DNA of 64,000 bases from NCBI GenBank assembly GCA_017468085.1, contig JAFUJR010000027.1, forward strand, positions 62,001 through 126,000, in the 5' to 3' direction. The DNA is from Clostridia bacterium (GTDB lineage Bacteria; Bacillota; Clostridia; Christensenellales; Borkfalkiaceae). Positions 18,400 through 45,519 of the stretch are shown here, piece by piece. The stretch's first letter is position 1; each line of letters begins with the position of its first letter. The translations under genes and the position numbers were made by a program. The notes beneath the pieces were generated by a model. That model saw only the letters and a list, made by a program, of their open reading frames with translations. It did not search any database and had not been told where the DNA came from.

Positions 18400-18522
18400 A
18401 TGAAAAGAAACTATGAAAACGTAGAATTGGAAATCGTGTTCTTCTGCGCTGAAGACGTTATCAGAACTTCTCCAACCGATAACACGGCAGAAATGCCCGA
18501 TTTCCCCGAAACTTTCGGTTAA
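18400..18522 (+). CDS. 40-residue peptide, family shared with the 45403 peptide
   Basis: A small gene starts 19 bases after the giant protein stop, with AGGAGG and AGAGGAA upstream, and is followed at 18578 by a clear terminator. The product begins MKRNYENVELEIVFF, continues with EDVIRTS and ends in an acidic, Pro-rich tail with no transmembrane segment. It matches the 38-residue peptide at 45403 in the pattern MK-x-x-Y, then LEIV, then ED, then R-x-S. Short clostridial peptides with this sort of start are known to me only as hypothetical proteins. The function is unknown; a secreted or modified peptide is one possibility, a cytoplasmic partner another. Confidence 0.65.
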   Translation: MKRNYENVELEIVFFCAEDVIRTSPTDNTAEMPDFPETFG

Positions 18523-18577
18523 TGAAATACCAAGGCAAACGGAGCTTTGCTCCCTTGCGAAGATATGGACAAAAACG

Positions 18578-18612
18578 GCAACGCACGGAAACGTGCGTTG
18601 CTTGTTTTTTTT
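18578..18612 (+). terminator. Intrinsic terminator of the polysaccharide locus
   Basis: Perfect 10-bp stem GCAACGCACG / CGTGCGTTGC around GAAA, followed by TTG and eight T. It ends the transcript of the 2206-aa protein and the 40-aa peptide. Confidence 0.9.
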
Positions 18613-18654
18613 GCGAAAAACCGCTTAAAACGATGAAAAAAGTATATAAAACAA

Positions 18655-18683
18655 TGGACATTATCAGTTATTTTATGTATAAT
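18655..18683 (+). promoter_or_regulatory. Sigma-A promoter of the MFS gene
   Basis: TGGACA (18655-18660), a 17-base spacer and TATAAT (18678-18683) lie 57 bases before the MFS start codon, just after the terminator of the preceding unit. The transporter is therefore a separate transcription unit. Confidence 0.7.
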
Positions 18684-18739
18684 ATATCTAACGTAAAGCC
18701 ATAGAAGTTTTACGTAAAAAATCGGCGAATGAGGCTACC

Positions 18740-20023
18740 ATGTCTGCGTTGAAGTTCAAAAGAACAAAATTTGCGTGTTATGCGGCGTACTTTACGATGT
18801 CGTCCGTATTTTGCTTTCCCGCGTTGTTATTCACAACGTTCCACGATATGTACGGCATTTCGTACACGCTGTTGGGGACGCTCGTTTTAACCAACTTCTG
18901 CACCCAACTCGCAGTGGATTTAATATTCACTTTTTTCTCAAAAAAATTTAACGTAAAAATTATCGTGCGTATCATGCCGCTGTTGACGGCGGCAGGGCTG
19001 CTTATTTATGCGCTCGTGCCTACTTTTTTCCCGAATATCGCTTATTTAGGGCTGTTATTGGGGACGGTTATTTTTTCAATATCGGCAGGCTTTTCCGAAG
19101 TGCTTTTAAGCCCGACGATTGCGGCAATTCCCTCCAAAAATCCGCAGCGGGATATGAGTATGCTACATTCCTTGTATGCATTCGGCGTGTTTACAGTCGC
19201 CATTATCACAACGGTGTATTTTAAAATCTTTAACACGGAAACTTGGGTATATTTGGCGCTCTTTTTCGCCGCTCTGCCCGTTATTGCCGCGGTCTTGTTT
19301 ATGACTTCGCCTCTGCCTAATATGGACGGCACGGAAAGTGCGCAGGGCGTAACAAAAACCAAGGACCGCATCATTGGTACGGCGCTTTGTGTGGCATGTA
19401 TTTTCTTTGGAAGCTGTGCGGAAAACGTAATGTCGAATTGGGTGTCGAGTTACGCGGAAAGCGCGCTTCATGTCGACAAAGCGATAGGGGATTTGCTCGG
19501 ATTAGCAGGCTTTGCAATTTTACTTGGACTTATGCGTATGGGCTATGCCAAATTCGGCAAAAATATCAGCGTCGTCTTGCTTGTGGGTATGATTGGCGCG
19601 GCGGCGTGTTATTGGGTGGCGGGTCTGTCCTTGCACGCGGTTCCGGCGCTTGTCGCTTGTATGCTGACAGGCTTATTTGCCGCAATGCTTTGGCCGGGGA
19701 CGCTCATTTTGATGGAAGAAAAAATTCCTTCGCCGGGCGTGGCGGCGTATGCGCTGATGGCGGCAGGGGGTGACCTTGGCGCGGCGCTCGCACCGCAACT
19801 TATGGGCGCTGTGGTCGATAACGTAGCCGCAAGCGGTTTCGCGGCGGAGCTTGGCGCAAAACTTGGCCTCACAGCCGAGCAAATCGGTATGAAGACGGGT
19901 ATGCTCGTTACCTCGCTTTTCCCTATTTTTGGTATGGTTGTGGTATTGGTAATCATCTGCTATTTTAAAAAGCATCCCTTAAACAAACCGCAAGGGTTGC
20001 CTTTAAAAGCGGGAAACGGATAA
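18740..20023 (+). CDS. Major facilitator superfamily transporter
   Basis: This 427-aa protein has about twelve hydrophobic segments in two halves of six and a central loop near 195-210, typical of MFS secondary transporters. The overall look resembles the sugar-porter/FucP-like group, but no substrate-defining motif can be read. GAGG lies upstream of ATG 18740. It has its own promoter and a terminator downstream. Sitting between a polysaccharide locus and a GH4 glycosidase, it could import a released mono- or disaccharide; that is inference from position. Confidence 0.85.
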   Translation: MSALKFKRTKFACYAAYFTMSSVFCFPALLFTTFHDMYGISYTLLGTLVLTNFCTQLAVDLIFTFFSKKFNVKIIVRIMPLLTAAGLLIYALVPTFFPNIAYLGLLLGTVIFSISAGFSEVLLSPTIAAIPSKNPQRDMSMLHSLYAFGVFTVAIITTVYFKIFNTETWVYLALFFAALPVIAAVLFMTSPLPNMDGTESAQGVTKTKDRIIGTALCVACIFFGSCAENVMSNWVSSYAESALHVDKAIGDLLGLAGFAILLGLMRMGYAKFGKNISVVLLVGMIGAAACYWVAGLSLHAVPALVACMLTGLFAAMLWPGTLILMEEKIPSPGVAAYALMAAGGDLGAALAPQLMGAVVDNVAASGFAAELGAKLGLTAEQIGMKTGMLVTSLFPIFGMVVVLVIICYFKKHPLNKPQGLPLKAGNG

Positions 20024-20033
20024 TCAAACAAAT

Positions 20034-20073
20034 AAAAATCGACGTAACGGTATTGCCGATACGTCGATTTTTT
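20034..20073. terminator. Bidirectional terminator between MFS and AraC genes
   Basis: 13-bp inverted repeat: AAAAATCGACGTA (20034-20046) and TACGTCGATTTTT (20060-20072), with a T-run on both strands. It serves the MFS gene on plus and the AraC gene on minus. Confidence 0.9.
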
Positions 20074-20162
20074 ATTATTGAAAATCGAAAAAAAAGAACA
20101 AAACGTTAAAAATTGGAAACAAATAGGTATTGCATTATAAAAAAAGCTGTGTTATACTTACC

Positions 20163-20969
20163 TTATAAATGCGGTTTGCTTTCTTTCCGATATTGTAAAG
20201 GCGAAGTTCCCGTATGTGCCTTGAATGCCTCCGAAAATCGTTGCAAAGAGGAAAAACCGACGAGGTAGGCGACGTTCTCAACGGTATGCGCGGAATTTTT
20301 TAAAAATTCTTTCGCTTTTTCAATACGAATTTTTGTTAAATATCGGTAAGGGGCTTCCCCCGTTTTTCGTAAAAACAGCGACGAGAAATAAGCGCGAGAA
20401 AATCCAAGTTGCGCCGAGAGCGACGAAATATCGATTTCTCTAAAATAATGGTTTTCCAAATAGCTGATAGCCGTTTCCACGGGGTCGTCCGCCGCCTTTT
20501 TAGGCGTTGATTTAACGGAATTTAACACCTCAAAAAGCACGTGCAGACAAGAAAAACTGTCCTCAATCTTATCTAAAAGGGCGTTTTTAAGGGAAATTAA
20601 GCCGCTTTTTTGATAACGCATAAAAAATTCTGCGTTTATGCGGCTGAGTAGTTCTTTGGCAAACGGGCCGCCGAAGGCGATCCACGAATACTCCCAAGGC
20701 GTATCTTTATCTGAACAGTATAAAGTTATTTCTTCGGGCAAAATCAAAAACGCCTCGCCCGCTTCCAAAAAACGTTTTTCGCCGTTACGCTCAATATAGC
20801 CTCTCCCTTTTTCGATAAAGTGCAACAAAAAATAAGAGCGAACGGCAGGGCCAAAGGCGTGTAAGGGCGGCGTTTTATGTGTGCCGATCTCGTACACGAC
20901 GATAGGGTCATTGGGCTGAAAAAATTGACGCACGTAATGAAATTTGGGATCGTAATCGGTATTCGGCAT
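20163..20969 (-). CDS. AraC-family transcriptional regulator (cupin-type sensor)
   Basis: This 268-aa protein has an N-terminal beta-rich arabinose-binding-like fold, about residues 20-150 (GRGYIERNGEKRFLEAGEAF), and a C-terminal double helix-turn-helix, about 170-265 (ISSLSAQLGFSRAYFSSLF and VAYLVGFSSLQRFSEAFKAHTG). The frame extends upstream to 21041, but that would begin with an AT-rich pseudo-hydrophobic stretch. ATG 20969 is preceded by CCGAGGTGG at good spacing and was chosen. It is divergent from the GH4 glycosidase at 21045 with a palindromic site between them, so it probably senses a sugar and controls that gene. Confidence 0.9.
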   Translation of the reverse strand: MPNTDYDPKFHYVRQFFQPNDPIVVYEIGTHKTPPLHAFGPAVRSYFLLHFIEKGRGYIERNGEKRFLEAGEAFLILPEEITLYCSDKDTPWEYSWIAFGGPFAKELLSRINAEFFMRYQKSGLISLKNALLDKIEDSFSCLHVLFEVLNSVKSTPKKAADDPVETAISYLENHYFREIDISSLSAQLGFSRAYFSSLFLRKTGEAPYRYLTKIRIEKAKEFLKNSAHTVENVAYLVGFSSLQRFSEAFKAHTGTSPLQYRKESKPHL

Positions 20970-20987
20970 AAACCACCTCGGTATAAT

Positions 20988-21006
20988 TGCTATATTTACT
21001 ATAGCA
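20988..21006. promoter_or_regulatory. Candidate operator in the AraC/GH4 divergent promoter
   Basis: Inverted repeat TGCTATA-N5-TATAGCA sits in the 75-base divergent intergenic region. It overlaps promoter-like elements: TATAAT at 20982, and TTGCTA (20987) with a 17-base spacer to TAAAAT (21010) reading towards the GH4 gene. Confidence 0.5.
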
Positions 21007-21044
21007 TAATAAAATAAAAAAATCAATAGGAGAACGAACAAAAA

Positions 21045-22355
21045 ATGAAAATTGTATTTTTAGGCGCAGGTAGTACCGTATTTGCAAAAAACGTACTTGG
21101 CGATTGCATTTTGGCAGAAAATTTGCCTTGCTTTGATATTGCGCTCGTTGACGTCGACGAGGAGCGTTTAAACGAATCCTACGCGTTGATTTGCGCGCTT
21201 CGCAATAAGTATAAGCCTGCGGTTACCGTCGAAAAATATCTTTCCACGGACGATAAGCAAACGGAGGCGGCGTTTGCAGGCGCTTCGTATATTATCAACG
21301 CTATTCAAGTAGGCGGTTACGAGCCTTGCACCGTTACCGACTTTGAAATCCCCAAAAAATACGGTCTTCGCCAAACGATTGGCGATACGCTTGGCATCGG
21401 CGGTATTTTCCGTGGCTTGCGTACGATTCCCGTTATGAAAAAATACGCGGATATTATCGAAAAAGTCTGCCCCAACGCCCTGTTCCTCAACTATACGAAC
21501 CCGATGAGCATCCTTTCGGGCTATATGCAACAGTACACAAAAGTAAAAACGGTTGGGCTTTGCCACTCTTGTCAAGTCGTAACAAAAATGTTGCGCGATT
21601 GGTTGGAAATGCCCGAATTGGACGAGGCAAACTTTACGCTGGCAGGTATCAACCATATGTGTTGGCTTTTGACTTTGCAGGATAAGGACGGCAACGATTT
21701 GTATCCCGCCTTGAAAGAAAAATTCAATCAAGTCCGCCCCAAATACGACCTCGTGCGTTTGGAAATAATGAATCGCTTCGGTTATTATAATACGGAAAGC
21801 AGCGAGCACACTGCCGAATATCATCCCTATTTCATTAAAAAGGACCACCCCGAACTCATTGAAGAATTTAATATTCCCTTGGACGAATATCCTCGCCGTT
21901 GCGTAAATCAAATTCGCGATTGGAAAGAACTTCGCGAAAAGATTATGCTCCCCGAAAACGTTAAGCACGAGCGTTCGAGAGAGTACGGCTCGCACATCAT
22001 CGAAGCGTGCGAGACGGGCAAGCCTTATAAAATTTATGCGAACGTAATGAACGACGGACTCATCACCAACTTGCCGAAAAACGCTTGCGTAGAAGTGCCG
22101 ATAATGGTGGACGAAAACGGTCTTAATCCCTGTGTTGTAGGGGATATTCCCGATCAGCTTGCGGCTTTAAATATGACGCATATCGCCGTACATAATATGA
22201 CCATCAAAGCGGCGGTTACGCTCGAAAAGAAATATATTTATATGGCGGCGTATCTCGACCCGCACACCCGCGATCAGCTCACTTTCGAGGAAATCAAAAA
22301 CCTCTGCGACGATCTGATCGAAGCGCACGGCGATTGGTTGCCTAAGTTCCACTAA
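21045..22355 (+). CDS. Glycoside hydrolase family 4 (alpha-galactosidase MelA-like)
   Basis: This 436-aa enzyme has the GH4 layout. An N-terminal NAD-binding Rossmann motif (FLGAGSTVF) is followed by GDTLGIGGIFRGLRTIP, NYTNPMSI, then GLCHSCQ (Cys and His positions used for the divalent metal) and GINHMCWL (metal His). GH4 enzymes use NAD+ and Mn2+ and cleave by oxidation-elimination in the cytoplasm. The GLCHS and GINHM forms resemble the alpha-galactosidase/alpha-glucuronidase side of the family rather than 6-phospho-glucosidases, but the exact sugar is open. It pairs with the divergent AraC gene and probably acts on what the neighbouring transporters bring in. Confidence 0.9.
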   Translation: MKIVFLGAGSTVFAKNVLGDCILAENLPCFDIALVDVDEERLNESYALICALRNKYKPAVTVEKYLSTDDKQTEAAFAGASYIINAIQVGGYEPCTVTDFEIPKKYGLRQTIGDTLGIGGIFRGLRTIPVMKKYADIIEKVCPNALFLNYTNPMSILSGYMQQYTKVKTVGLCHSCQVVTKMLRDWLEMPELDEANFTLAGINHMCWLLTLQDKDGNDLYPALKEKFNQVRPKYDLVRLEIMNRFGYYNTESSEHTAEYHPYFIKKDHPELIEEFNIPLDEYPRRCVNQIRDWKELREKIMLPENVKHERSREYGSHIIEACETGKPYKIYANVMNDGLITNLPKNACVEVPIMVDENGLNPCVVGDIPDQLAALNMTHIAVHNMTIKAAVTLEKKYIYMAAYLDPHTRDQLTFEEIKNLCDDLIEAHGDWLPKFH

Positions 22356-22371
22356 GTAAAACGAACCCCAA

Positions 22372-22400
22372 AAAGACCTCTGTTTACGGCAGAGGTCTTT
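22372..22400. terminator. Terminator between GH4 and second AraC gene
   Basis: Perfect 11-bp stem AAAGACCTCTG / CAGAGGTCTTT with a 7-base loop. On the minus strand it is followed by a run of six T, so it mainly ends the AraC gene. It can also serve the GH4 gene on plus. Confidence 0.85.
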
Positions 22401-22403
22401 ACG

Positions 22404-23288
22404 CTATTTATTGGACGATTTGTTCACGGAGCGCACGTATTCGGTGGGGGATACGCCCACGTGTTTTTTGAAAAGGGAAGTCAGATAATGCACGGACGAC
22501 ATATTCATCGAGTACGCGATTTGGGTCAACGTTTGTTCGCCTTCAAGTAGGGTGGATTTGGTGTAATTTACGCGTAAATCGTTTAAGTATTCCACGACGG
22601 ATTTCCCAAACGCTTGCTTGAATTTTACGGAAAGGCTGGTTTTGTTGGTGTTAAACAAAAAGCAAAGCTCCTCGATGGCGATTTTTTGACGGAAATTCTC
22701 GTCTAAATACCGTTTGATTTCATAAATTTGCGACTTATCTTCCGCGCTGATTTTGGGCGCTTGCTCCGTGTTGTCTATCTCTAAAACCAAACGCAGACAT
22801 TTAATTAAAAATACCTGCAAATAGTTTTTAATCAACTGATCCGCGCCGAATGCAAATTCTTTGCGTTTCTTCATATTTTTAAGGTTAGGCACGTTGTAAG
22901 GAGGAAGATATACGGTGCGCGCTTCTTTGATGATTTCCGCCAACGTCTTTTGCAATTCTTCGGTGAGCGTAACGGGCGCGCGCGTCAAAGCGTCTAAGGC
23001 AGGGGCTTCGCATTCAAACCCGATAATGATGATATTCGGCGCAGTCGCTTCGTTGCAGGTCAAGGAGTGGGTTTGGTTCGCGCCGTGCAAAATCATTTGG
23101 TTTTGGTACAAGCCGCCTGTGTAATGGTCGGAGGAAATGCGTATATTCCCTTTGTCTACGTACACAAGCTCGCAAAACCCGTGCGAGTCGTCCACGGTAT
23201 GATAGTTGGGCGTAAATTCAAAATAATGCACGTTCGCCAACCGCGTTACTTTCAAGTCGGATTTAAAAGAGCGTAATACAAACTCCAT
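22404..23288 (-). CDS. AraC-family transcriptional regulator
   Basis: This 294-aa protein has an N-terminal cupin-like half (HYFEFTPNYHTVDDSHGFCELVY region) and a C-terminal AraC DNA-binding domain (IEELCFLFNTNKTSLSVKFKQAFG; TQIAYSMNMSSVHYLTSLF; VGVSPTEYV). It is transcribed from a near-consensus promoter that overlaps the start region of the divergent creatinase-like operon at 23412. That makes it the likely regulator of the operon. Confidence 0.9.
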   Translation of the reverse strand: MEFVLRSFKSDLKVTRLANVHYFEFTPNYHTVDDSHGFCELVYVDKGNIRISSDHYTGGLYQNQMILHGANQTHSLTCNEATAPNIIIIGFECEAPALDALTRAPVTLTEELQKTLAEIIKEARTVYLPPYNVPNLKNMKKRKEFAFGADQLIKNYLQVFLIKCLRLVLEIDNTEQAPKISAEDKSQIYEIKRYLDENFRQKIAIEELCFLFNTNKTSLSVKFKQAFGKSVVEYLNDLRVNYTKSTLLEGEQTLTQIAYSMNMSSVHYLTSLFKKHVGVSPTEYVRSVNKSSNK

Positions 23289-23319
23289 TTTGGTACTCCA
23301 AAAGAAAATTATTTACGAT

Positions 23320-23348
23320 ATTATACCAAAAAAATACGATTTTGTAAA
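23320..23348 (-). promoter_or_regulatory. Sigma-A promoter of the AraC gene 22404-23288
   Basis: On the minus strand, TTTACA (23343-23348), a 17-base spacer and TATAAT (23320-23325). The -35 element lies inside the upstream region of the divergent operon, which has only a weak -10 (TACAAT 23370-23375) of its own, so the two promoters probably interact. Confidence 0.8.
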
Positions 23349-23411
23349 GACAAAACGAGCAGTCCGTGATACAATAAAGAAAAAAATTATTTTTGAGAGG
23401 TAAAAACTATT

Positions 23412-24584: not shown

Positions 24585-24585
24585 T

Positions 24586-24948: not shown

Positions 24949-24958
24949 GGTGAAAATT

Positions 24959-25693: not shown

Positions 25694-25694
25694 A

Positions 25695-27824: not shown

Positions 27825-27836
27825 AACAAGTAAAAG

Positions 27837-27864
27837 GGCGCGGTGGCAAATTTGCCACCGCGCC
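27837..27864. terminator. Palindromic hairpin between convergent genes
   Basis: 28-base perfect palindrome (arms GGCGCGGTGGCAAA and TTTGCCACCGCGCC) between the convergent 25695 and 27906 genes. The T-tract is weak on both sides, but the stem is very stable. Confidence 0.7.
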
Positions 27865-27905
27865 TATCGTCATTATAAGTTGTTTTTACCGCCCAAATAG
27901 GGGAA

Positions 27906-28468: not shown

Positions 28469-30364
28469 TTACGCCGTTTTCATCAATTCTTCTTTGCGGT
28501 TTTGCAAGGTATACAAATCGAAATATCTGCCCTTCTTTTTCAGGAGCTCGTTGTGGTTGCCCTGCTCGATGATTTCCCCGTGCGAAAGGACGATAATGTT
28601 GTCCGCGTGCTGTACGGTGGAAAGTCTGTGCGCAACGATAAGCATCGTGCCGATATTCATCATTTTTTCCAACGAATCTTGAATCAAAACCTCCGTTTCG
28701 GTGTCGATATTCGCCGTCGCCTCGTCCAAAATCATCACCGCAGGCTTATGCACGATGGTACGCGCAAACGAAAGAAGCTGTCTTTGCCCTGCCGAGAAGT
28801 TGTTGCCGCGTTCCAAAATCTGATAATCCAAGCCTTTGTCCAGCTTGGTGATAAAGGAATCCGCGTTCACGTACTTGCATGCCTGCCAAACCGCCTCGTC
28901 GTCGATACCTTCGCTGCGGAGCAGGATATTATCGCGAATCGTACCCGAGAAGAGGAATACGTCCTGCAACATCTGCCCGAAGTGCTTACGCAAAGAGGAA
29001 ATTTTAATGGCTTTAATATCAATTCCGTCAATTAAAATTTGACCCTTTTGTATGTCGTAGTTACGGCAGATGAGGGACAAAATCGTCGTCTTGCCCGAAC
29101 CCGTCGAACCTACGAACGCAACCGTCTGCTTGGCGTCGATTTTAAAGGAAACGTCTTTCAAAACCCATTCCTCACCCTCGTAGGCAAACCAAACGTTTTT
29201 AAACTCAATTTCGCCTTGAACGTCTGTCAATTCCCTTGCGCCAAGGCTATCCACCACGGTGGGCTGCATATCCATGATCGTGAAGATTTTTTCCGCCGAC
29301 GCAAACGCCGATTGCAACCAGTTAAATTGCTCTGCAAGGCTTTGGATGGGGTTAAAGAATTTGGATATATACATATAGAACGAAACGACGATTTCGCTCG
29401 TAACTACCTGTCCTAAAATCGCTTTCCCGTCGATTGCGCCTTTCGCACCGAGAAAGAAAAGACAGAGCACCGACACCATATACAGCATATACACGGTGGG
29501 GCGGAAGACGCCAAAGACGAAGATCTGTTGATATTTCGCCTTGCCAAGCATTGCGTTTTTCGTGCGGAATTCGTTAAGTTTCTTATCCTCGCGATTGAAG
29601 AATTGCGTAATTTTAATGCCCGAAAGGTTTTCGGAAAGGAAGGTGTTGATGTCCGTCGTGCCGTCTTTTACCTTGCGGTATGCACGGCGGGAGAATTTAC
29701 GGAATAAAATGGTGAACAGCAAGATGAAAGGCACAAAGCAAAGCACCATCATCGTCAGCATATAATTTAAACAGAGCATCGCCACCAATACGCCGATGAT
29801 GACGAAGCAGTTTTTAATGAGGTTGACGATCAGGTTGGTGAACATCATCGAAACGCCGTTCGTATCGTTGGTTACGCGCGTAACCAATTTCCCGACGGGG
29901 ATATGATTGAGCTGTTCGTGCGAGAGCTTTTCAATATGCTCAAACAAATCGATACGCAAATCGGAAATAATTCTCTGCCCGACCTTTTGCAATATGATCG
30001 ATTGGAAATAGGTGCAGAGCAAGGAAACGACCAAAATGCCCGCGTATAAGCCGATCATCGTGAAGAGGTAGTTAAGTTGGAAACCGTCTTCCTTGATGAT
30101 GCCTTGGATTTTACCGATAAGCAGAGGGGAAACGATATCGTACGCAATCGAGAATACCATCAAAAACAACACGAAGGCAAATTTGCCCCAATAAGGCTTT
30201 GCGTATTTCAGCAAGCGCTTGACGATTTCCTTGTCGGAGATATTCCGTTCAAAGCCCATGCTCTCCTTCTTGTCTTTGATAAGGCAGTAAGCAAGAATGA
30301 AAAGGATAGACAGCGCGCCGAGAATGCCGCCCATGATAATCAGAGGATAATAATTCTTCCACAT
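28469..30364 (-). CDS. ABC exporter half-transporter with complete ATPase site
   Basis: This 631-aa protein has an N-terminal hydrophobic segment (~8-30), a six-helix exporter domain (~55-350) and a nucleotide-binding domain with Walker A (GSTGSGKTT), signature FSAGQ and Walker B VMILDEATAN including the catalytic Glu. The gene follows the partner at 30366 by one base, and the two form a heterodimeric lipid/drug/peptide exporter of the MsbA/BmrCD type. The extra N-terminal helix is slightly unusual. Substrate unknown. Confidence 0.9.
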   Translation of the reverse strand: MWKNYYPLIIMGGILGALSILFILAYCLIKDKKESMGFERNISDKEIVKRLLKYAKPYWGKFAFVLFLMVFSIAYDIVSPLLIGKIQGIIKEDGFQLNYLFTMIGLYAGILVVSLLCTYFQSIILQKVGQRIISDLRIDLFEHIEKLSHEQLNHIPVGKLVTRVTNDTNGVSMMFTNLIVNLIKNCFVIIGVLVAMLCLNYMLTMMVLCFVPFILLFTILFRKFSRRAYRKVKDGTTDINTFLSENLSGIKITQFFNREDKKLNEFRTKNAMLGKAKYQQIFVFGVFRPTVYMLYMVSVLCLFFLGAKGAIDGKAILGQVVTSEIVVSFYMYISKFFNPIQSLAEQFNWLQSAFASAEKIFTIMDMQPTVVDSLGARELTDVQGEIEFKNVWFAYEGEEWVLKDVSFKIDAKQTVAFVGSTGSGKTTILSLICRNYDIQKGQILIDGIDIKAIKISSLRKHFGQMLQDVFLFSGTIRDNILLRSEGIDDEAVWQACKYVNADSFITKLDKGLDYQILERGNNFSAGQRQLLSFARTIVHKPAVMILDEATANIDTETEVLIQDSLEKMMNIGTMLIVAHRLSTVQHADNIIVLSHGEIIEQGNHNELLKKKGRYFDLYTLQNRKEELMKTA

Positions 30365-30365
30365 A

Positions 30366-32147
30366 TTACTTTTCCTCCTCCAATTTCTGCAATTCAGCCA
30401 TCGCCTTATAGGCAGGGCAGGTTTCCATCAGCTCGTCGTTCGTGCCGACGGCAACGATTTTTCCTTCGTCGATAAAGACGATTTTATCCATCTGCCGAAT
30501 GGTGGAAATTCGGTGCGCAATCAAAATGGTCGTCTTGCCCTCGCGCTCCTTGGCAAGGTTGGCAAGCAGGGTGGTTTCCGTGCTTGTATCCACAGCCGAA
30601 AGAGAGTCGTCCAAAATCAAGATAGACGAATCTTTTAAGAGAGCGCGCGCAATCGAAATACGCTGTTTTTGTCCGCCCGATACGGTAACGCCGCGCTCAC
30701 CGAGCACCGTTTCGTATTTTTCGGGGAATTCCTCGATATTGTCGTCAACCGCCGCCATTTTCGCCGCGTAACGGATTTTATCGGGGTCTGCTTTGTCGCA
30801 AGCAAACGCAATATTGTTAGAAATCGTGTCGCTGAAAAGGAAATTGTCCTGCGGCACGTAGGAAATGTGCTTGCGGAGGGAGGAAATCGTAACGTCGTTT
30901 ACGTCCGTATCGTCTACAAACAGACAGCCGTCCGCTACGTTATAGTTACGGAGTAGCAAATCGACCAAAGTCGTTTTGCCTGCGCCCGTTCTGCCGATGA
31001 CGCCCACGTTTTCGCCCGCTTCAATGGTGAACGAAACGCCGTTCAGCGCGTCGTAATCGCCCGTGAAATGTTTAAAGCGCAGGTCGCGGAATTCAATTTT
31101 ACCCTTGACGTCCGAAATCTCTTTTGCGTCGGGTTTATCCACAACGTCTTGCTTTGCGTCCATAAGCTCGCTGATACGGTTCAGGGAGGCTTTCCCGCGC
31201 GATACCATTTCGATAAGCTCGGAAACCGCCATAAACGGCCAAATGACCGAGTTAAATAAGCCGATGAATTTCATAAGCTCGCCTGCGTTTAACGTATCTT
31301 TATAGACGAGATAACCGCCGTAGCCCAAGATAACGCAGATGACCGATTCGACGAACAGCGTAACGAAGATACGCAACAGAACGGAATATCTCGTATATTC
31401 TACGTTTGCGTCCTCGTTTTCTTTACACAGCTTTTTAAACGCCCAAAGCTCTTTAAATTCCTTGACGAACGCCTTGATCACGGCAATGCCCGAAAAACTT
31501 TCCTGCGAGAAGTCGGAAAGGTTGGAAAAGGCTTGCTGTCTTACGTCCCATTTTTTCGTCATATACTTACCGACGATAAGGGAAACGGCAAGCAGGAATA
31601 TCATAGGGATAAGGGAGAGGAGAGTCATCAGCCAATCGACTTGGAACATCTTGATGATCGCCATACTGCCAAGGAAAATGGCGTCGGCGAACATCATAGA
31701 ACCCCATCCGAAGCATTCGTGCACCGTCTCGATGTCGTTGGTGAAAAGGGACATCAGGTTGCCCACCTTATTCACTTGATAATATTGCTGTGATAAATTC
31801 TTGCAGTGGTCAAACATGCGAAGTCGCAAATCCGTTTCCATTTTGAGCGCCGAACCGAAGAAGCAAATTCTCCACAAAAATCTGCCCGCAACCATTATGA
31901 CAATGATCCACATCATCGGCTCGCACAGATATTTGAGCACGAAATTAAAATCGAACGCCAACCATTTGCCGTCTACTTGCACCATACGCGTACCGTCGAT
32001 AAGGCTATTCAAGCCGTTGACCAAATATTCGTACAGATCGGGAATTTCCAGCTGCGCCAAATCTACGGCAATTAGCGATATCAACCCAAAAAGAAAGAGG
32101 TATAGATAGCGCAGATAGTACTTGTTGATATACTTTCCGAACAACAT
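30366..32147 (-). CDS. ABC exporter half-transporter with degenerate ATPase site
   Basis: This 593-aa protein has a six-helix membrane domain and an ATPase domain with Walker A GRTGAGKTT, signature VSGGQ and Walker B LILDDSLSAVD. Asp replaces the catalytic Glu, the hallmark of the degenerate half of heterodimeric exporters such as TM287/288 and BmrCD. The frame can be extended to 32192, but ATG 32147 is preceded by AAGGA at suitable distance and begins with the usual MLFGKYINKYY, so that start was chosen. A promoter lies at 32188-32217. Confidence 0.9.
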   Translation of the reverse strand: MLFGKYINKYYLRYLYLFLFGLISLIAVDLAQLEIPDLYEYLVNGLNSLIDGTRMVQVDGKWLAFDFNFVLKYLCEPMMWIIVIMVAGRFLWRICFFGSALKMETDLRLRMFDHCKNLSQQYYQVNKVGNLMSLFTNDIETVHECFGWGSMMFADAIFLGSMAIIKMFQVDWLMTLLSLIPMIFLLAVSLIVGKYMTKKWDVRQQAFSNLSDFSQESFSGIAVIKAFVKEFKELWAFKKLCKENEDANVEYTRYSVLLRIFVTLFVESVICVILGYGGYLVYKDTLNAGELMKFIGLFNSVIWPFMAVSELIEMVSRGKASLNRISELMDAKQDVVDKPDAKEISDVKGKIEFRDLRFKHFTGDYDALNGVSFTIEAGENVGVIGRTGAGKTTLVDLLLRNYNVADGCLFVDDTDVNDVTISSLRKHISYVPQDNFLFSDTISNNIAFACDKADPDKIRYAAKMAAVDDNIEEFPEKYETVLGERGVTVSGGQKQRISIARALLKDSSILILDDSLSAVDTSTETTLLANLAKEREGKTTILIAHRISTIRQMDKIVFIDEGKIVAVGTNDELMETCPAYKAMAELQKLEEEK

Positions 32148-32187
32148 AATTGTTTTTTCCTTACAATATAAATTATAAACGAATTTT

Positions 32188-32217
32188 ATCATAGCACTTT
32201 CCCCGCTTGCTTGTCAA
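32188..32217 (-). promoter_or_regulatory. Sigma-A promoter of the ABC exporter operon
   Basis: Minus strand: TTGACA (32212-32217), an 18-base spacer and TATGAT (32188-32193). Confidence 0.75.
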
Positions 32218-35123: not shown

Positions 35124-35131
35124 AATTAAAA

Positions 35132-37977: not shown

Positions 37978-38007
37978 TCGTTAAACAAAACATTTCGTAA
38001 AAAATGC

Positions 38008-38046
38008 AAAGGTGATAAGGCTTATTCTGTAAGCCTTATTACTTTT
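38008..38046 (+). terminator. Hairpin between receptor and permease genes
   Basis: 17-bp stem with one mismatch or wobble (38008-38024 with 38030-38046) and a 5-base loop, but only a short T-run. It probably reduces read-through so that receptor is made in excess over permease. Confidence 0.65.
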
Positions 38047-38070
38047 GTATAGAATAGGAGGAAGATAAAC

Positions 38071-39105: not shown

Positions 39106-41030
39106 TGGCTCAATCTGTAGATTTAACAAAATATGAAATAAACGAAAATTCCTTCCGCTTTGTCAATGCAGACAGGCGGATTACGGATACGCAATTACGA
39201 ACCAAAGGCAGTTCTTTTGCTAAGGACGCGTTCCGACGTTTTTGTAAAAACAAGGCGTCTATTGTAGGCGCAATCGTTTTAGGGGTTTTGTTGTTGCTGT
39301 CGCTTATCGTTCCTCTTGTTTCCCCGTACAGTGTGAAAGTTGGGGACGCAAACATCAGCGAGCATTTCTTAGAACCCAAGCTTTTTGAAGCAGGAACGGG
39401 TTTTTGGGACGGAACGAAGACCTACAAAAAGACGGTGAATAGGGACGGTTCTATCAGCGGCGTTGTTTACGATACTGAAAACGAATGTCCCGCGGGCTTT
39501 GTTAAAGCCGCCGTAAGCAAGCTTGTCGTGGATACAGAGCCGACGTATATCAACAAAGCAACGTCGACTGGTTCGGGCGGTTATATGGTTTTTCAAACGG
39601 ACAACGACGATTCGGAAAAAAACGCGCTCCTTTATAACTATCATTCCTTCCCCGTTACGGCGGACGGCGGGTATACGCTGTCTTATACGATGTATGCGCA
39701 GGATGATATCAACGAAAGCAAATTAGGTAAATTCTGCGTATATCTGTTGGATGAAGAAACCGAGGAAAAGATAGTTTTGCAGGATTGGACTTCCGAATAT
39801 AACAACGCAACGTTTGATATCAGCGCAATGCTTGCCGAAAAGAATCTTTCTGTTTTAAATAAGTGTAAAATTTATTTTGAAATAGAGAAAACGCCCAAGC
39901 AGAGCAATTATATTCTTTTGCAGAATCTCACGTTGTCTTGCGCAGATTCCGACGTGAATGAAAAACTTTCGGCGATTAGCTTCACGGACGCAACCAAAAT
40001 GGTAAACCGTGCCGTTGTCGGGCAAGATTATCCCGCGGGATATTGGCAGTCAACGGGCGTTAAGGGCGTTTATGCTTCTAAAGTGTATTATTGCGAATTC
40101 GTTTACGATACCTACGAAGTGGTGTACGGCAAAAGCGAAGAGGTTTATGCTATTTCCGACTTCCGTAAGTTGAAAGAGCAAGGGCTTTGCGATTTCGATG
40201 AAAAGGACATTATAGCAACCTTTACGCCGTTGAGCGATAAATGCCCGATAAGAGAAGTTCTCGACGTTACCAAAAATTCCAAAACGGGAAAGGTACAAAG
40301 CGTTAAGGTTAACGTACCCAAATACTATAAAATGGGCTACGACAAGATGCCTAAGCACCTTTTGGGAACGGACGAAAACGGTTACGATTTGATCACCTTG
40401 ATGTTTACGGGCTTACGTACTTCCTTGTTGTTAGGCGTATGTACGGCGGCATTCTGTTTCTGTTTCGGTTTGGCTTGGGGTTCTATTTCCGGCTATTTTG
40501 GCGGCGCGGTTGACCTTGCAATGGAACGCTTTTGCGACATCTTAGGCGGTATTCCTTGGTTGGTTGTTATGACGCTTGCAATATTGCACTTCGGTAATGG
40601 TTTTGGCACCTTCTTTATGGCGCTGTGTCTTACCGGCTGGATGGGCACGGCGGCGCGTACGCGTACGCAGTTCTACCGCTTTAAGGGCAGTGAATACGTA
40701 CTGGCAAGCCGTACGTTAGGCGCAAGCGATTTCCGTTTGATATTTAAGCATATTTTGCCCAATTCGCTGGGTACGATTGTTACTTCCAGCGTGCTTATGA
40801 TTACAAGTACGATTTACAGCGAAGCGACTTTGGCGTATTTGAATTTGGGCTTGCAGGGGACGCAGGCGTTCGGTGTTATGATGGCGGCGAATCAGCAATA
40901 TATTCAATCCTTCCCGTTCTTGGTTATATTCCCTGCTATCATTATGGCTTTACTAATGATTTCGTTTAACTTGTTCGGTAACGGTTTACGCGACGCGCTT
41001 AACCCGACTTTGCGAGGTGCGGAGGATTAA
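39105..41030 (+). CDS. oppC: ABC permease, OppC type, with ~340-residue extracytoplasmic insertion
   Basis: At 641 aa this is twice the usual ~300. The N-terminal cytoplasmic tail and first helix (~48-72) are normal. After SPYSVKVG comes a ~340-residue domain, probably beta-sandwich (GGYTLSYTMYAQDD, KIYFEIEKTP), outside the membrane. The ordinary OppC continues at HLLGTDENGYDLITLMFTGLRTS with the remaining helices and the EAA loop (EYVLASRTLGASDFRLIFKHILP). LGTDENGYD normally follows directly after helix 1, so the insertion point is clear. It may contact the enlarged receptor. OppC partner of OppB. Confidence 0.9.
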   Translation: MAQSVDLTKYEINENSFRFVNADRRITDTQLRTKGSSFAKDAFRRFCKNKASIVGAIVLGVLLLLSLIVPLVSPYSVKVGDANISEHFLEPKLFEAGTGFWDGTKTYKKTVNRDGSISGVVYDTENECPAGFVKAAVSKLVVDTEPTYINKATSTGSGGYMVFQTDNDDSEKNALLYNYHSFPVTADGGYTLSYTMYAQDDINESKLGKFCVYLLDEETEEKIVLQDWTSEYNNATFDISAMLAEKNLSVLNKCKIYFEIEKTPKQSNYILLQNLTLSCADSDVNEKLSAISFTDATKMVNRAVVGQDYPAGYWQSTGVKGVYASKVYYCEFVYDTYEVVYGKSEEVYAISDFRKLKEQGLCDFDEKDIIATFTPLSDKCPIREVLDVTKNSKTGKVQSVKVNVPKYYKMGYDKMPKHLLGTDENGYDLITLMFTGLRTSLLLGVCTAAFCFCFGLAWGSISGYFGGAVDLAMERFCDILGGIPWLVVMTLAILHFGNGFGTFFMALCLTGWMGTAARTRTQFYRFKGSEYVLASRTLGASDFRLIFKHILPNSLGTIVTSSVLMITSTIYSEATLAYLNLGLQGTQAFGVMMAANQQYIQSFPFLVIFPAIIMALLMISFNLFGNGLRDALNPTLRGAED

Positions 41031-41033
41031 GAT

Positions 41034-43280
41034 ATGGAAAAAAAGTTAGAAGTAAAAAATTTGACTATATCTTTCCGTACGCCAAACGGAAAGGTGCAGG
41101 CAGTCCGTGATATTTCTTTCGATTTGTACAAGGGTGAAACCTTGGCAATCGTAGGGGAATCGGGTTCGGGTAAGTCCGTAACCTCCAAATCGATCATCGG
41201 TATTTCGGCGGCAAACGCCATCGTTGAAAACGGTCAAATTTTGTACGACGGGCAAGACCTCGTGCGTATTCCCGAAGAGGAAATGCACAAGTTGCGCGGC
41301 GACAAAATCGCGATGATTTTCCAAGACCCGCTTTCCGCGCTCGACCCTATCGTGCGTATCGGTCAGCAAATCACGGAAGCAATGCTTTTAAAGAACAAGG
41401 AAAGCCGTAAAAACGCGCGCAAGGAGTTCAACAAAAAACTTGCAGTATTAGCGCAAATGATGACGGCTGCGGTTGAGCATGGCGCATTGAAAGGCGGCCC
41501 TCTTGAAAACTTCAACCAAATTGCCGAATATATTACTACGTTCGATAAATTCAATATTAAGGCAATTCAGCTTGAAAACAGCTACAACACTGCGCGTAAT
41601 GCGGCGGGCGAAGCTACTGCAATGATCGACGATTTCCTTTTCCTTGTAGAAAAGCGCCAAAAAGTAGACGTTTCCACGACGGTGAAAGCCGTGCTTCGTA
41701 AGCTGAAAGCCGTCAACGACAAATATTTTATGGGCGGCTCTGTTGAACAACTCAACGCGTACATGGTAGCCCTTAACGAGATTAAAGGCGAGAAAAAAGA
41801 CGTCAATCCCGCAGTGGAGCAATTCACCAAGATCCGCGCTTGGTTGCAAGAAATTCTCAATCAACCGCAGTACAACTTCTTCCGTATCGGCTATTATCTC
41901 TACAAGAATCCGACGGAAGATTTAAGCACGATTCCTGCGGAGGAGGCAAACAAAAAGGCATACGACTTCTTGATGACGGATTATATGACGACCTTCTTGC
42001 AGTTGGAAAAAGCCGCGATTGCTTATTCCATGCAGGCGTCGATTGCCGCCAAGAAAGAGGCTATCGTCGCGCTCGAAGAAGGCGTGCAATTCTTCACGAA
42101 GGGCAGTTTTACCAAGAAGGAAGCGTTTGGGCGTTTTAAGAGCTTGAACAAGATCGTTCGCGCTACCATCGACCCGTTGGCTGTTATCAAAGACAACATC
42201 GCTTATACCTTCGGTAGTGCGCTGAATACGGAACTTGACAAGTATTTCTTCTACGTGGTGAATAACCCGAAGGAAGAAAAGCGTTTCGATAAGCAAACGG
42301 CAAAGCACGAAGCGCTTATTCAACGCGGTAAAAGTGTGGATTGGAAGGTCGTTCCTAAATCCGTCGTTCCTCTGGAAATGCAAATCCAAACGATTGTTAC
42401 CGTCTTGTCGCGCGTTATAGATAAATTTAAGGCGGACGTTGCCAATGCGGAGAACGTAGACCTTGACCAACAGACGGTTGCTTTGGTTGACTATTTAAAA
42501 GAAACGGCGTCTAAGGTCGTTTATAAAATCACCCCCCGCCTCGCAAAGGAAAAGGCGATCAAGTTGATGGAGGAGGTCGGTATTCCCGAACCCCGTATCC
42601 GTTACAGACAATATCCCTTTGAATTTTCGGGCGGTATGCGTCAACGTATCGTTATCGCAATCGCATTGTCGGCAAACCCCGACATTTTGATCTGCGACGA
42701 ACCGACGACGGCGCTCGACGTTACCATTCAGGCGCAAATTCTCGAACTTATCAACAGATTGAAAAAGGAACGCAATCTTTCCATCATTTTCATCACGCAC
42801 GACTTGGGCGTCGTTGCAAATATGGCGGACAGAATCGCGGTTATGTACGCAGGTAAAATCGTGGAATACGGCACGGTTGACGACGTTTTCTATAATCCTC
42901 GCCACCCGTATACCTGGGCGTTGCTTTCGTCCATGCCTGACTTGGACACCAACGAAAAGCTGGACGCAATCCCCGGTACGCCGCCTAACATGATTTATCC
43001 GCCCGTGGGCGACGCGTTTGCGGAAAGAAACAAATACGCAATGCAAATCGACTACGAAATGCAGCCGCCGATGTTCCAAATTTCGCCTACGCACTTCGCG
43101 GCTACTTGGTTGTTGCATCCCGATGCACCTAAAGTAGATATTCCTAAAAATATCACCGACAGAATTCAGCGTATGCGCAACAGACGTGAGGCGCAGAGCG
43201 CGGAAACGGCGGCAAAAACGCAACCCGAAGCTGTTGAAGAACAACCCGCTCCCGTAGCGGAAACACAGGATCAAGAATAA
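41034..43280 (+). CDS. oppD: ABC ATPase, OppD type, with ~370-residue helical insertion
   Basis: This is 748 aa against the usual ~330. Walker A (GESGSGKS, ~38-45) and the Q-loop MIFQDPLSALDP are followed at ~125 by a predicted all-helical segment of ~370 residues. The ATPase then resumes at AKEKAIKLMEEVGIPEP with signature FSGGMRQR, Walker B ILICDEPTTALD and the switch His region IFITHD. The C-terminal oligopeptide/dipeptide tail (GTPPNM) is present, followed by a Glu/Ala/Pro-rich end. All ATPase motifs are intact, so the insertion is tolerated. It should energise the OppBC channel. Confidence 0.9.
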   Translation: MEKKLEVKNLTISFRTPNGKVQAVRDISFDLYKGETLAIVGESGSGKSVTSKSIIGISAANAIVENGQILYDGQDLVRIPEEEMHKLRGDKIAMIFQDPLSALDPIVRIGQQITEAMLLKNKESRKNARKEFNKKLAVLAQMMTAAVEHGALKGGPLENFNQIAEYITTFDKFNIKAIQLENSYNTARNAAGEATAMIDDFLFLVEKRQKVDVSTTVKAVLRKLKAVNDKYFMGGSVEQLNAYMVALNEIKGEKKDVNPAVEQFTKIRAWLQEILNQPQYNFFRIGYYLYKNPTEDLSTIPAEEANKKAYDFLMTDYMTTFLQLEKAAIAYSMQASIAAKKEAIVALEEGVQFFTKGSFTKKEAFGRFKSLNKIVRATIDPLAVIKDNIAYTFGSALNTELDKYFFYVVNNPKEEKRFDKQTAKHEALIQRGKSVDWKVVPKSVVPLEMQIQTIVTVLSRVIDKFKADVANAENVDLDQQTVALVDYLKETASKVVYKITPRLAKEKAIKLMEEVGIPEPRIRYRQYPFEFSGGMRQRIVIAIALSANPDILICDEPTTALDVTIQAQILELINRLKKERNLSIIFITHDLGVVANMADRIAVMYAGKIVEYGTVDDVFYNPRHPYTWALLSSMPDLDTNEKLDAIPGTPPNMIYPPVGDAFAERNKYAMQIDYEMQPPMFQISPTHFAATWLLHPDAPKVDIPKNITDRIQRMRNRREAQSAETAAKTQPEAVEEQPAPVAETQDQE

Positions 43281-43297
43281 TACAAGGAGGATGAAAT

Positions 43298-44629
43298 ATG
43301 TCTAATGAACAAAATGTACAAAGCGTAAATTGTCCTCAATGCGACAATCCTGCGCAAGCGGTGCAAGCCAACGACGAGGTTTTGTTGAAGGTCGAGCATC
43401 TTTGCCAATATTTCCGTATGGGCAACCGCGAGCTGAAAGCGGTAGACGACGTCAGCTTTGAAGTAAAAAAAGGGGAGGTTTTCGGGCTTGTAGGCGAGTC
43501 CGGTTGTGGTAAAACCACGACGGGCAGATCCATCATCAAACTTTACGATATAACCTCCGGCAACGTCTATTTCAACGGCGAAAGGGTGGGGGCAGGTACG
43601 CGTTCATATAGGGACGCAATCAAAAATGCTCGCCGCGCCGCCGCGCAAAAGACGAGGGAATTAAAGGCGGAGTTGAAGGCTGATCCTAGCCGTGAGGCAG
43701 AAATCGCAGCCGAACTTGCCGCTTTGCAAGAAAGCACCGCCGCAATCGTCGCGGAAAATAAAAAACTTATCCGTGAAGCAAAGTGCAGCGAAAGAACGGC
43801 TAATAAAAATTATACGGAAAAGCTCGTGCAGGAATTGGAAGCGGAATACGCCCCCAAATTTGCCGAGGCAGAGGGCAACGAAGAGGAAACGAAGAAGTTG
43901 CAAAAAGAGTTTGCGGCTAAGCGCCGCGAGGCAAAGAGAAATCGTTTGATGACGCAAATTCAAATGATTTTCCAAGACCCTATCGCATCCCTCGACCCTC
44001 GTATGACGGTCCGTGATATTATTGCCGAAGGCTTGATCATCAACGGTATTCGCGATAAAAAGCGCATCGACGAAAAGGTGTACGAGATTTTGGAAACGGT
44101 TGGCTTGGTGCGCGAGCACGCAGACCGTTACCCTCACGAATTCTCGGGCGGTCAACGTCAGCGTATCGGTATTGCGCGCGCCGTCGTCATGCAACCCGAA
44201 ATGATTATCGCGGACGAACCTATTTCCGCGCTCGACGTATCTATTCAAGCGCAGGTTATCAACCTTTTGAACGATTTGAGAGAGCGCTTGGGGCTTACCA
44301 TTCTCTTCATTGCGCACGATTTGTCCGTTGTTAAATATTTCTCGGATAGAATCGGCGTTATGTACTTTGGTAAGATGGTCGAGCTTGCTTCCTCGGACGA
44401 CTTATTCAAAAATCCTTTGCACCCTTATACCCGTTCGTTGTTGTCGGCAATACCTTTGCCTGACCCGCATTACGAAAAGCAGCGTACAAGGGTAACCTAC
44501 AACCCCATTGCAGAGCACGATTATTCTAAGGATTTACCTACGATGCGTGAGGTTGCGCCCGGACACTTCGTATATTGCAACGATGCGGAAGAGGCGAAGT
44601 ATAAGCAAATACTTAAACAGGCAAACTAA
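43298..44629 (+). CDS. oppF: ABC ATPase, OppF type, with charged coiled-coil insertion
   Basis: This 443-aa protein has Walker [10 protein letters not shown] (~65-73), then at ~100-215 a Lys/Glu/Ala-rich segment likely to be coiled coil, then the Q-loop [14 protein letters not shown], signature FSGGQRQR, Walker [13 protein letters not shown] and switch His IAHD. OppF proteins are normally ~320-340 residues without this insert. An N-terminal CPQCDNPAQ stretch precedes the ATPase. With OppD it forms the heterodimeric motor. Confidence 0.9.
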
Positions 44630-44653
44630 TAGAGATAGGATGGTTAAAACGTA

Positions 44654-45064
44654 ATGTCGGGTAATAAAAAATCAATACTAATTAAATATTTAGTGTGCTT
44701 TTGCATTGCCGTGGCGCTCGTTTTCGTTATACTCCTTATTCAGGGCTTTTTTAAGGATACCGTGAAAGCGAATATGCACGTTCTCCACAACGCTTTCTTT
44801 GCAACGGGCGCGTTAATGATGCTCTTTTCGGGCTTATTATTCGTAACGGACGAGGGGGCTTTTCTCGGCGTTGGGTATGCCTTTGGCAGATTGGTAAAAA
44901 CGTTGTTGCCTTTTTGGGGAAAAGACCACGAAACTTATGCGGAATATCGCGAACGGAAAGAAAGCAAAAAGAAAACCAGTACAGTCAAGCTCAGCCTTTT
45001 GTTGACGGGCTTGGTGTTCTTCCTTATCAGCTTGATATTCTTAGTAATTTGGCACAACGTTTAA
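44654..45064 (+). CDS. DUF3899-type membrane protein
   Basis: This 136-aa protein has hydrophobic helices at ~10-30, ~45-65 and ~110-132. The pattern HNAFFATGALMMLFSGLLFV then DEGAFLGVGYAF and EYRERK matches the DUF3899 family of clostridial membrane proteins, whose function is unknown. It lies 24 bases after oppF and before the operon terminator, so it is cotranscribed with the transporter. Confidence 0.78.
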   Translation: MSGNKKSILIKYLVCFCIAVALVFVILLIQGFFKDTVKANMHVLHNAFFATGALMMLFSGLLFVTDEGAFLGVGYAFGRLVKTLLPFWGKDHETYAEYRERKESKKKTSTVKLSLLLTGLVFFLISLIFLVIWHNV

Positions 45065-45107
45065 GTCAATAAAACAGAATAACGTACGCGCTTGATAACG
45101 TACGTAT

Positions 45108-45144
45108 AAATAGCCGCCGCGCATACAGCGCAGGCGGCTATTTT
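45108..45144 (+). terminator. Terminator of the opp operon
   Basis: AATAGCCGCC / GGCGGCTATT stem followed by TTTT, 44 bases after the DUF3899 stop. The rest of the 338-base gap up to 45402 has a direct repeat AACGTACG (45081, 45097), a small inverted repeat near 45268-45287 and the promoter below. I see no gene in it. Confidence 0.85.
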
Positions 45145-45312
45145 CATGCTCCTTTTAATAAAAACTATGCCCAAATTCCGCTTCCAATAGGACGTTTTGT
45201 ATATAGTTTAACAAAATAAAAACCGTTTATTCCCGCAAAAAAAGGTAAAAAACGGTAGGTTGGCGCGGTTTGAGCGCAAACTGCGTGAATTATGACAAAC
45301 ATTCCTAAAAAT

Positions 45313-45346
45313 TTGACAACAAACGATTGACAAATTATGATATAAT
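45313..45346 (+). promoter_or_regulatory. Promoter of the peptide/2030-aa protein operon
   Basis: TTGACA (45313-45318), 17 bases, TATGAT (45336-45341). A second TATAAT overlaps at 45341-45346, and another TTGACA is at 45327. The dense overlap of elements suggests a strong or doubly controlled promoter. Confidence 0.75.
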
Positions 45347-45402
45347 GCAACCTGTATAATAGCGATTTTATATTTAGAAATCGCAAGGAGGAAAGATACA
45401 GG

Positions 45403-45519
45403 ATGAAAAAAGAGTATCAGGATGTAGCTTTAGAAATTGTTCTCCTTATCGAGGACGCGGTGCGTTGCTCCAATGAGTATAGCGTTGGCGACGACACAAG
45501 TGAGGACATTTTCGACTAA
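45403..45519 (+). CDS. 38-residue peptide, family shared with the 18400 peptide
   Basis: The gene has AAGGAGG well placed 12 bases upstream and its own promoter. It starts MKKEYQDVALEIVLL, continues with EDAVRCS and ends in an acidic tail (DDTSEDIFD). It shares MK-x-x-Y, LEIV, ED and R-x-S with the 40-residue peptide at 18400, in the same order and spacing apart from one residue. It is soluble and acidic. It lies 26 bases before the 2030-aa surface protein and is first on that transcript, whereas the other peptide is last on its transcript. Function unknown. Confidence 0.7.
   Translation: MKKEYQDVALEIVLLIEDAVRCSNEYSVGDDTSEDIFD

Follow-up and report, generated by a model that had tools for sequence, protein, structure and literature searches.

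The paeninodin-type lasso peptides, which belong to the phosphorylated ribosomally synthesized and post-translationally modified peptides (RiPPs), are associated with the kinase PadeK and with PadeB1. The closest described relatives of the genes considered here are those for the linear polyphosphorylated peptides (LPP; LppA, K, B, S, D and N) of Popov et al. (2026, PMC13381572), whose Discussion states that the role of phosphorylated RiPPs, LPP and paeninodin alike, is unknown. This report concerns two very small peptide genes within a 64,000-nucleotide (nt) stretch of a draft Clostridia genome (assembly GCA_017468085.1, contig JAFUJR010000027.1, positions 62,001 to 126,000; hereafter the window), each of which adjoins a gene for a giant secreted protein. 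Their relatives form a family of candidate RiPP precursors, and what is new here is that these genes are scattered over the genome and mostly adjoin a large secreted protein.

In the available text of PMC13381572, the LPP system comprises a recognition element (LppB), an HprK-like kinase (LppK), a signal-peptidase-like protease (LppS), an NTP transferase (LppN) and an MsbA-like exporter (LppD). Its precursors have a conserved N-terminus with a YxxPx[VLI] leader motif, the Tyr of which is held in LppB, and a Ser three residues past the cut carries several phosphates; the Tyr-Ser distance in LppA is 18 by the numbering of that paper. The peptides described here look like RiPP precursors of comparable build, with a shared leader-like N-terminus, an anchoring Tyr, an invariant Ser and a variable acidic tail. 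On balance we think it probable, though well short of assured, that they are the precursors in a divergent LPP pathway acting in trans and that the mature peptide acts on or with the secreted partner encoded beside it. The features of the two window loci are as follows.

11760..18380, forward strand: partner A gene, 2206 residues, secreted (predicted signal peptide)
15363..15809, forward strand: domain D1 in partner A, residues 1202-1350
18382..18387, forward strand: ribosome-binding site AGGAGG of peptide A, read by eye
18400..18522, forward strand: peptide A gene, 40 residues, candidate LPP-type precursor, open reading frame confirmed; Tyr5 in a leader-like part, Ser24 invariant, tail acidic with an aromatic stretch at its end
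45386..45391, forward strand: ribosome-binding site AGGAGG of peptide B, read by eye
45403..45519, forward strand: peptide B gene, 38 residues, second candidate precursor, open reading frame confirmed; Tyr5, Ser23, acidic tail with EDIFD at its end
45546..51638, forward strand: partner B gene, 2030 residues, secreted (predicted signal peptide)
49380..49859, forward strand: domain D1 in partner B, residues 1279-1438

A preliminary description of this DNA had placed both reading frames exactly here, had credited each with a strong ribosome-binding site and had noted that both peptides contain MK, Y, LEIV, ED and R-x-S in an identical order. All of this was borne out, an AGGAGG box preceding each gene. 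Peptide A follows its partner, 19 nt separating the partner stop from the peptide start, and peptide B precedes its partner with 26 nt in between. The two giants are similar in parts (best BLAST E 5e-8, 25% identity), and the best-matching stretch contains D1, of which each protein has one copy. Pfam returned sub-threshold matches only for partner A and none for partner B, and direct comparison of the window peptides and the giants with NCBIfam and Pfam gave nothing useful. Between the two loci lie two adjacent transporter genes of ABC_membrane plus ABC_tran type (28469-32192, reverse strand).

Spread and layout of the peptide family

The two window peptides had been proposed to be members of one family, and a search of their own genome, a draft of 2.06 Mb that is 82% complete, with peptide A alone did retrieve more copies. 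A first profile of six copies, both window peptides included, gave 11 matches there at E <= 10, and copies outside the six rows were still matched (contig C19, E 9.4e-9; contig C33, E 6.0e-6). The likeness is beyond chance, because both the sequence search and the profile retrieved further copies. A later profile of 67 rows likewise found 11 matches in this genome, now at E <= 1e-4. Across the genus, 42 of 57 genomes match the six-row profile at E <= 0.001; with the 67-row profile at E <= 1e-4, matches occur in 66 of 251 genomes of the family and in 35 of 391 sampled genomes of the class. Failure of the reading frames to persist in related genomes, which the preliminary description had allowed for, was thus not what was found. 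The largest number of copies in a single genome is 14 (G053, 67-row profile).

Every row of the 67-row alignment has Tyr5 and Ser24, and Asp19 is nearly invariant. The spacing from Tyr to Ser is 18-20 in all 75 peptides tested, under a splitting rule that allowed 17-20. Tails are acidic, with a mean charge of -4.4, and 71 of 75 have an aromatic residue within the last ten positions. None of the 75 tails examined contains Cys, and a Cys-based RiPP core for this family was rejected on that ground. Matches of the 67 aligned peptides to NCBIfam are at chance level, and a Pfam search with the two window peptides gave nothing useful; with these 67 members the family would add a kind of gene, 35-50 residues long, that NCBIfam does not recognise. 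No publication matching the motif strings of the family was found in the literature searched, which held few subscription journals and no bioRxiv preprints.

The sets used below were assembled as follows. The 68 genus peptides are 8 copies from the own genome, the two window peptides not among them, plus 60 matches from other genomes taken in E-value order from the six-row search; six higher-ranked matches were omitted (G009:C14, G036:C22 and G018:C189, with an internal stop; G021:C48, G048:C15 and G036:C110), and one own-genome copy (C16:25983, locus L011) was retrieved and left uncounted. The class set is 19 of 77 matches outside the own genome, again by E-value, five higher-ranked ones being omitted (G624:C141, with a stop; G482:C13, G482:C14 and G285:C32, near a contig end; G061:C18, from the same family). 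Alignment A2 omits locus L085, the start of which is unclear.

Secreted neighbours and their domains

That the peptides are functionally linked to their giant neighbours was the central suggestion of the preliminary description, together with the caution that homologues might be scattered with no preference for such neighbours. The neighbourhoods of the 68 genus and 19 class peptides were compared with those of other small genes of the same stretches, using gene calls from simple scripts and a crude hydrophobicity rule of our own for secretion. Under a strict rule (a secreted protein of at least 600 residues on the same strand within 35 nt), 45 of 68 genus peptides have such a neighbour against 18 of 373 controls, so that the preference is plain and the suggested link is supported. 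A looser rule (200 residues, 100 nt) gives 52/68 against 62/373, and a first count under a slightly different rule had given 42/68 against 34/491. The class peptides behave alike (9/19 against 2/153, strict; 14/19 against 15/153, looser). The corresponding p-values reach down to 9e-30, though the genomes are related and independence is therefore overstated. In the literature searched, no publication on scattered precursors paired with secreted proteins was found and, PMC13381572 apart, nothing found there described this system.

The partner may lie on either side. In 73 cases a secreted or N-terminally cut partner lies within 100 nt, the nearest one being upstream of the peptide in 43 and downstream in 30. 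This bears directly on the idea that the peptides are translated leader open reading frames that control the gene beside them through attenuation or translational coupling, as the placement of peptide B directly upstream of its giant might suggest. Such a leader must precede its target and needs no class-wide conservation at the protein level. Regulation of this kind is excluded as a general role because partners lie upstream of many peptides, and we consider the idea very improbable.

Many of the partners share a domain. A profile of the stretch common to 42 aligned partners (alignment A5, 42 of 59 genus partners, picked from the shorter ones) defines D1, about 150 residues long and present in one copy per protein. 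Of 83 proteins with at least 400 residues that flank a peptide (both flanks included) and are secreted or cut at the N-terminus, D1 is matched in 45; it is matched in 3 of 140 other proteins of that type and in 0 of 541 remaining ones. For a second domain, D2, the counts are 14/83, 2/140 and 0/541. The loci used to build both domains were also those used to count them, with the exception of a set of 105 other loci, chosen around the cassette described below or around NTP_transf_5. These 105 hold 10 D1/D2 proteins, 9 of them with a peptide nearby: 8 within 700 nt and the ninth (L224) with its peptide 23 nt downstream, while the tenth is cut by the contig start. All told, 62 of 87 peptides have a D1 or D2 neighbour (59/68 in the genus, 3/19 in the class). 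Partner-domain neighbours lie on the strand of the peptide in 62 of 63 cases, at a distance of 11-24 nt in 41 of 63.

Four D1/D2 proteins do not neighbour the peptide that defines their locus (L085, L076, L081 and L078). The one in L085 overlaps the locus peptide in the gene call, and those in L076 and L081 have another peptide of their own; L078 is taken up below. A third domain, D3, occurs in 7 proteins, 5 of which adjoin peptides, the other two lying 12 and 576 nt from one (L238, L245). Counting L073 (D3) and L085 as paired, the genus peptides left without a partner domain are L064, L065, L079 and L009, all at contig ends, and L095, L109 and L025.

Comparison of D1 with Pfam, NCBIfam and PDB structures gave nothing of note (a MiiA motif in 2/40, best E 0.014). 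Its three most conserved basic columns hold Arg in 45, 45 and 50 of 51 rows and Lys in 3, 5 and 0, and these positions form a plausible candidate for a phosphate-binding site. Treating D1 and D2 as one fold is unsupported (HHalign probability 1.2), and D1 and D3 match weakly in HHalign (16%). Locally, profile positions 155-210 of D2 (alignment A9) match chains of ribosome hibernation promoting factor, at E 7.7e-5 in the best case, a likeness judged to be chance. The partners are otherwise diverse, the commonest Pfam match being Flg_new in 8 of 42.

Tails and leaders differ in how they follow the partner. When the partners are unrelated (1500 pairs drawn from 2457), peptides share 38% identity between Tyr and Ser and 18% in the tail; when the partners are related (30 pairs), the values are 47% and 43%. 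The tail therefore changes with the partner far more than the N-terminus does.

A candidate modification cassette

Three loci of the class (L135, L144 and L145) hold a secreted protein and a peptide followed by P-loop kinase-like, PqqD and signal-peptidase-like proteins. Pfam finds PqqD in L135 and L144 and NTP_transf_5 in L144; in L145 there follow an ABC exporter and a protein with, by eye, a resemblance to NTP_transf_5. The own genome has a cassette of kinase, PqqD protein, protease and ABC exporter on another contig (C25, locus L162), at a site common to the genus beside genes that by eye resemble groEL/ES and purB. The preliminary description had asked whether the neighbours of such peptides would be enriched for repeat-domain surface proteins, export genes or modifying enzymes: secreted partners are indeed found, while the candidate modifying enzymes of this genome lie elsewhere and are not adjacent. 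No precursor gene was found inside the cassette in the genus, and the loci of the closest kinase relatives (L187-L201) have no peptide match.

The PqqD protein, the candidate recognition protein, matches PF05402 over cut-off (E 4.9e-17 in the own genome) and is present in 32 of 57 genus genomes, including 11 of 12 of high quality; against the solved RiPP recognition element 9x90 it gives E 0.1. The kinase is found in 33 of 57, with a P-loop invariant in 17 of 17 sequences; its place in the cassette, too, fits an LPP kinase. The protease, which adjoins the PqqD-type protein, matches sigpep_I_arch below cut-off (E 5.2e-8), and its Ser27, His65 and Asp80 are invariant in 17 of 17. The exporter matches MsbA_rel (E 1.5e-78) and MsbA (E 2.2e-75), below the equivalog cut-offs. 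A single NTP_transf_5 (PF14907) is encoded in the own genome, at a site apart from the cassette. Of the 57 genus genomes 32 have one, among them 11 of the 12 high-quality ones, and as a rule it does not lie with the cassette. In loci L180-L186 it sits, by eye, mostly among sugar-nucleotide and capsule-like or glycan-synthesis-like genes.

Peptide and kinase tend to occur in the same genomes. With a cut for full-length kinases set by us on the class match list (60 of 391 genomes pass; 110 have any match), the kinase is present in 33 of 35 peptide-bearing and 27 of 356 peptide-less class genomes (Fisher p 4e-29, uncorrected for ancestry). One of the two exceptions, G463, has a PqqD next to a diverged kinase. 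Within the genus, 17 genomes have peptides and lack the kinase, and 17 of 17 also lack purB at E <= 1e-50; since the gene adjoining the cassette is missing as well, the region is probably absent from those draft assemblies, and many metagenome drafts seem to lack this part of the chromosome. In G052 the assembly covers the purB site, which has no cassette, and matches to PqqD, kinase, NTP_transf_5 and peptide are all lacking; this makes the genome an informative negative for the link between peptide and cassette as judged from sequence.

Linkage is closer in some named genomes. Among their kinase loci, of which the best 80 of 544 were considered, the recognition protein and the protease both follow the kinase in 40, and neither lies downstream in 20, Bifidobacterium tissieri included (there they lie upstream). 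A peptide match occurs in 18 of the 80; one (L240) was judged false, leaving 17 linked to the cassette (alignment A7 omits L212, which has an internal stop). In B. tissieri DSM 100201, a cultured actinobacterium (L239, 2236-9780), recognition protein, protease, peptide, secreted protein and kinase stand in one run, in this order:

2236-2502: recognition protein
2510-2935: protease
2980-3138: peptide
following the peptide: 1672-residue secreted protein with a weak Peptidase_M60 match
following the secreted protein: 228-residue protein
8980-9780: kinase

These observations bear on the view that the peptides are unmodified cytosolic partners, for instance chaperones that help to export the adjacent secreted proteins or factors that assemble them, with no relation to the cassette. 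Pairing with secreted proteins on either side would suit that role, as would peptides that are short, acidic and free of a signal peptide. What it leaves unexplained is the co-occurrence with the kinase, the linkage to the cassette in the named loci and an invariant Ser at RiPP-like spacing, and we rate it as rather improbable. The preliminary description had left precursor, chaperone-like partner and regulator all open; the evidence now favours the modified-peptide precursor.

In Faecalibacterium gallinarum JCM 17207 (L216, about 8990-14010), two peptides with the same leader and Cys-containing tails adjoin two Radical_SAM proteins, kinase, recognition protein and protease. By sequence this is possibly a radical-SAM branch of the same leader family, and the case fits a single leader that would serve different RiPP chemistries.

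Proposed mechanism and comparison with known systems

By analogy with LPP, the recognition protein would hold the leader at its Tyr, the kinase would phosphorylate the Ser, the protease would cut shortly before that Ser, and the MsbA-like exporter would release the phosphorylated tail. One shared cassette elsewhere in the genome would process all of the scattered precursors in trans. Each precursor appears, from the gene pairing, to be co-encoded with one secreted protein, usually large and in the genus mostly bearing D1 or D2, and the mature phosphopeptide would act on or with that partner outside the cell, possibly by way of the basic positions of D1. Such action on the co-encoded partner is the most likely outcome given the pairing. 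The sequence basis for the whole is the peptide family, the cassette, their co-occurrence and the pairing with secreted proteins.

Several observations weigh against this reading. One peptide-bearing class genome (G525) has neither PqqD nor a kinase match, and in four genus genomes (G001, G006, G012 and G051) the kinase is present while no peptide was detected. Pfam returned no match for the kinase of the two relatives tried, and the NCBIfam matches of the kinase are weak (HprK_rel_A, E 0.0016; ScmC, E 6.1e-5; both below cut-off). The PqqD protein resembles LppB only weakly by sequence (9x8z, E 0.39) and is slightly nearer to lasso TbiB1 (E 0.0071). In the peptides, the Pro of YxxP is kept in just 8 of 68 genus members (in the class, 13 of 19 have, by eye, a Pro three residues past the Tyr), and Phe replaces Tyr in 4 of 19 class peptides (L139, L142, L144 and L148). 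Pairing has its gaps as well: the D1 protein of L078 has no peptide found nearby, the peptides of L095, L109 and L025 lack a D1, D2 or D3 neighbour though away from contig ends, and so do 12 of 19 class peptides. Finally, the agreement of tail and partner could come from shared descent of the locus alone.

An LPP-type product need not act on its neighbour. It could be an independent signal or antagonistic peptide that is co-expressed with secreted proteins through shared conditions. The cassette evidence serves this explanation equally, and in F. gallinarum the related leaders with Cys-rich tails stand beside two radical SAM enzymes, as would be the case for bioactive peptides. Near one-to-one pairing with D1, D2 and D3 proteins and the agreement of tail and partner are both unexpected if the product acts alone. 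We judge an independent signal unlikely, although it deserves to be kept in mind.

A more specific form of action on the partner is display. Here the phosphopeptide would be a dedicated adaptor that holds its own secreted partner on the cell without a sortase. After export, the NTP transferase would join the phosphorylated Ser end to a surface glycan, while the partner domain would grip the tail or the phosphate (through the conserved Arg positions in the case of D1). Every secreted enzyme or adhesin would come with a tether of its own, made by the ribosome, and one machine would process them all. A tether would explain the scarcity of other anchors in partner-domain proteins, of which 12 of 53 have, by a crude pattern test, a lipobox or a membrane anchor at the C-terminus (69 of 114 among other secreted proteins), and would also explain why NTP_transf_5 is often found among glycan-synthesis-like genes. 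We offer display tentatively, as an unlikely elaboration.

Almost all precursor genes adjoin one for an exported protein, mostly bearing an undescribed domain, and this provides a first lead on the purpose of such peptides. If precursors do pair with secreted proteins through dedicated domains, the role of phosphorylated RiPPs becomes testable: a partner is named at each locus, cultured B. tissieri DSM 100201 holds the genes together, and the three unnamed domains D1-D3 become candidate phosphopeptide receptors.

Among known systems, SynChlorMet (ScmC, TIGR04249; ScmD, TIGR04248) provides the best NCBIfam match of the kinase, which is to ScmC at the E-value given above (3.5e-8 for the kinase of L135), and the PqqD protein matches ScmD weakly. 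These scores fall well short of the curated cut-offs, the ScmC match reaching 22.5 bits where the cut-off is 125.

Paeninodin-type lasso peptides resemble the present system in kinase, PqqD protein, NTP transferase and the logic of leader recognition. An identity as lasso precursors of this type would draw on the same leader logic, the HprK-like kinase and NTP_transf_5, and the best NCBIfam match of the PqqD protein is the lasso PqqD family, below cut-off. Yet the leader has Tyr where, in the available text of PMC13381572, paeninodins have Trp, and none of the 57 genus genomes has a match over cut-off to B2 (PF13471), the leader protease of lasso peptides, three matches being sub-threshold; on this result lasso identity was rejected. 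A ring-closing macrolactam synthetase (asparagine-synthetase-like) was not recognised by eye among the cassette loci listed, no genome-wide search being made. We regard lasso precursors as scarcely credible here.

The LPP system of PMC13381572 differs, as far as its available text goes, in four respects. Its precursors number one to three per cluster, whereas here they are dispersed through the genome; most peptides of this genus lack the Pro of YxxP; NTP_transf_5 usually lies away from the cassette; and the pairing of precursor and secreted protein seen here is not mentioned in that text, from which the words 'secreted' and 'Clostridia' are absent. The likeness extends to the machinery, with a recognition protein, a putative HprK-like kinase, a signal-peptidase-like protease, an MsbA-like exporter and an NTP transferase, and to the precursors themselves, which combine a constant N-terminus, a putative anchoring Tyr, a Ser about 18 residues on and a variable tail in a system without a lasso protease.

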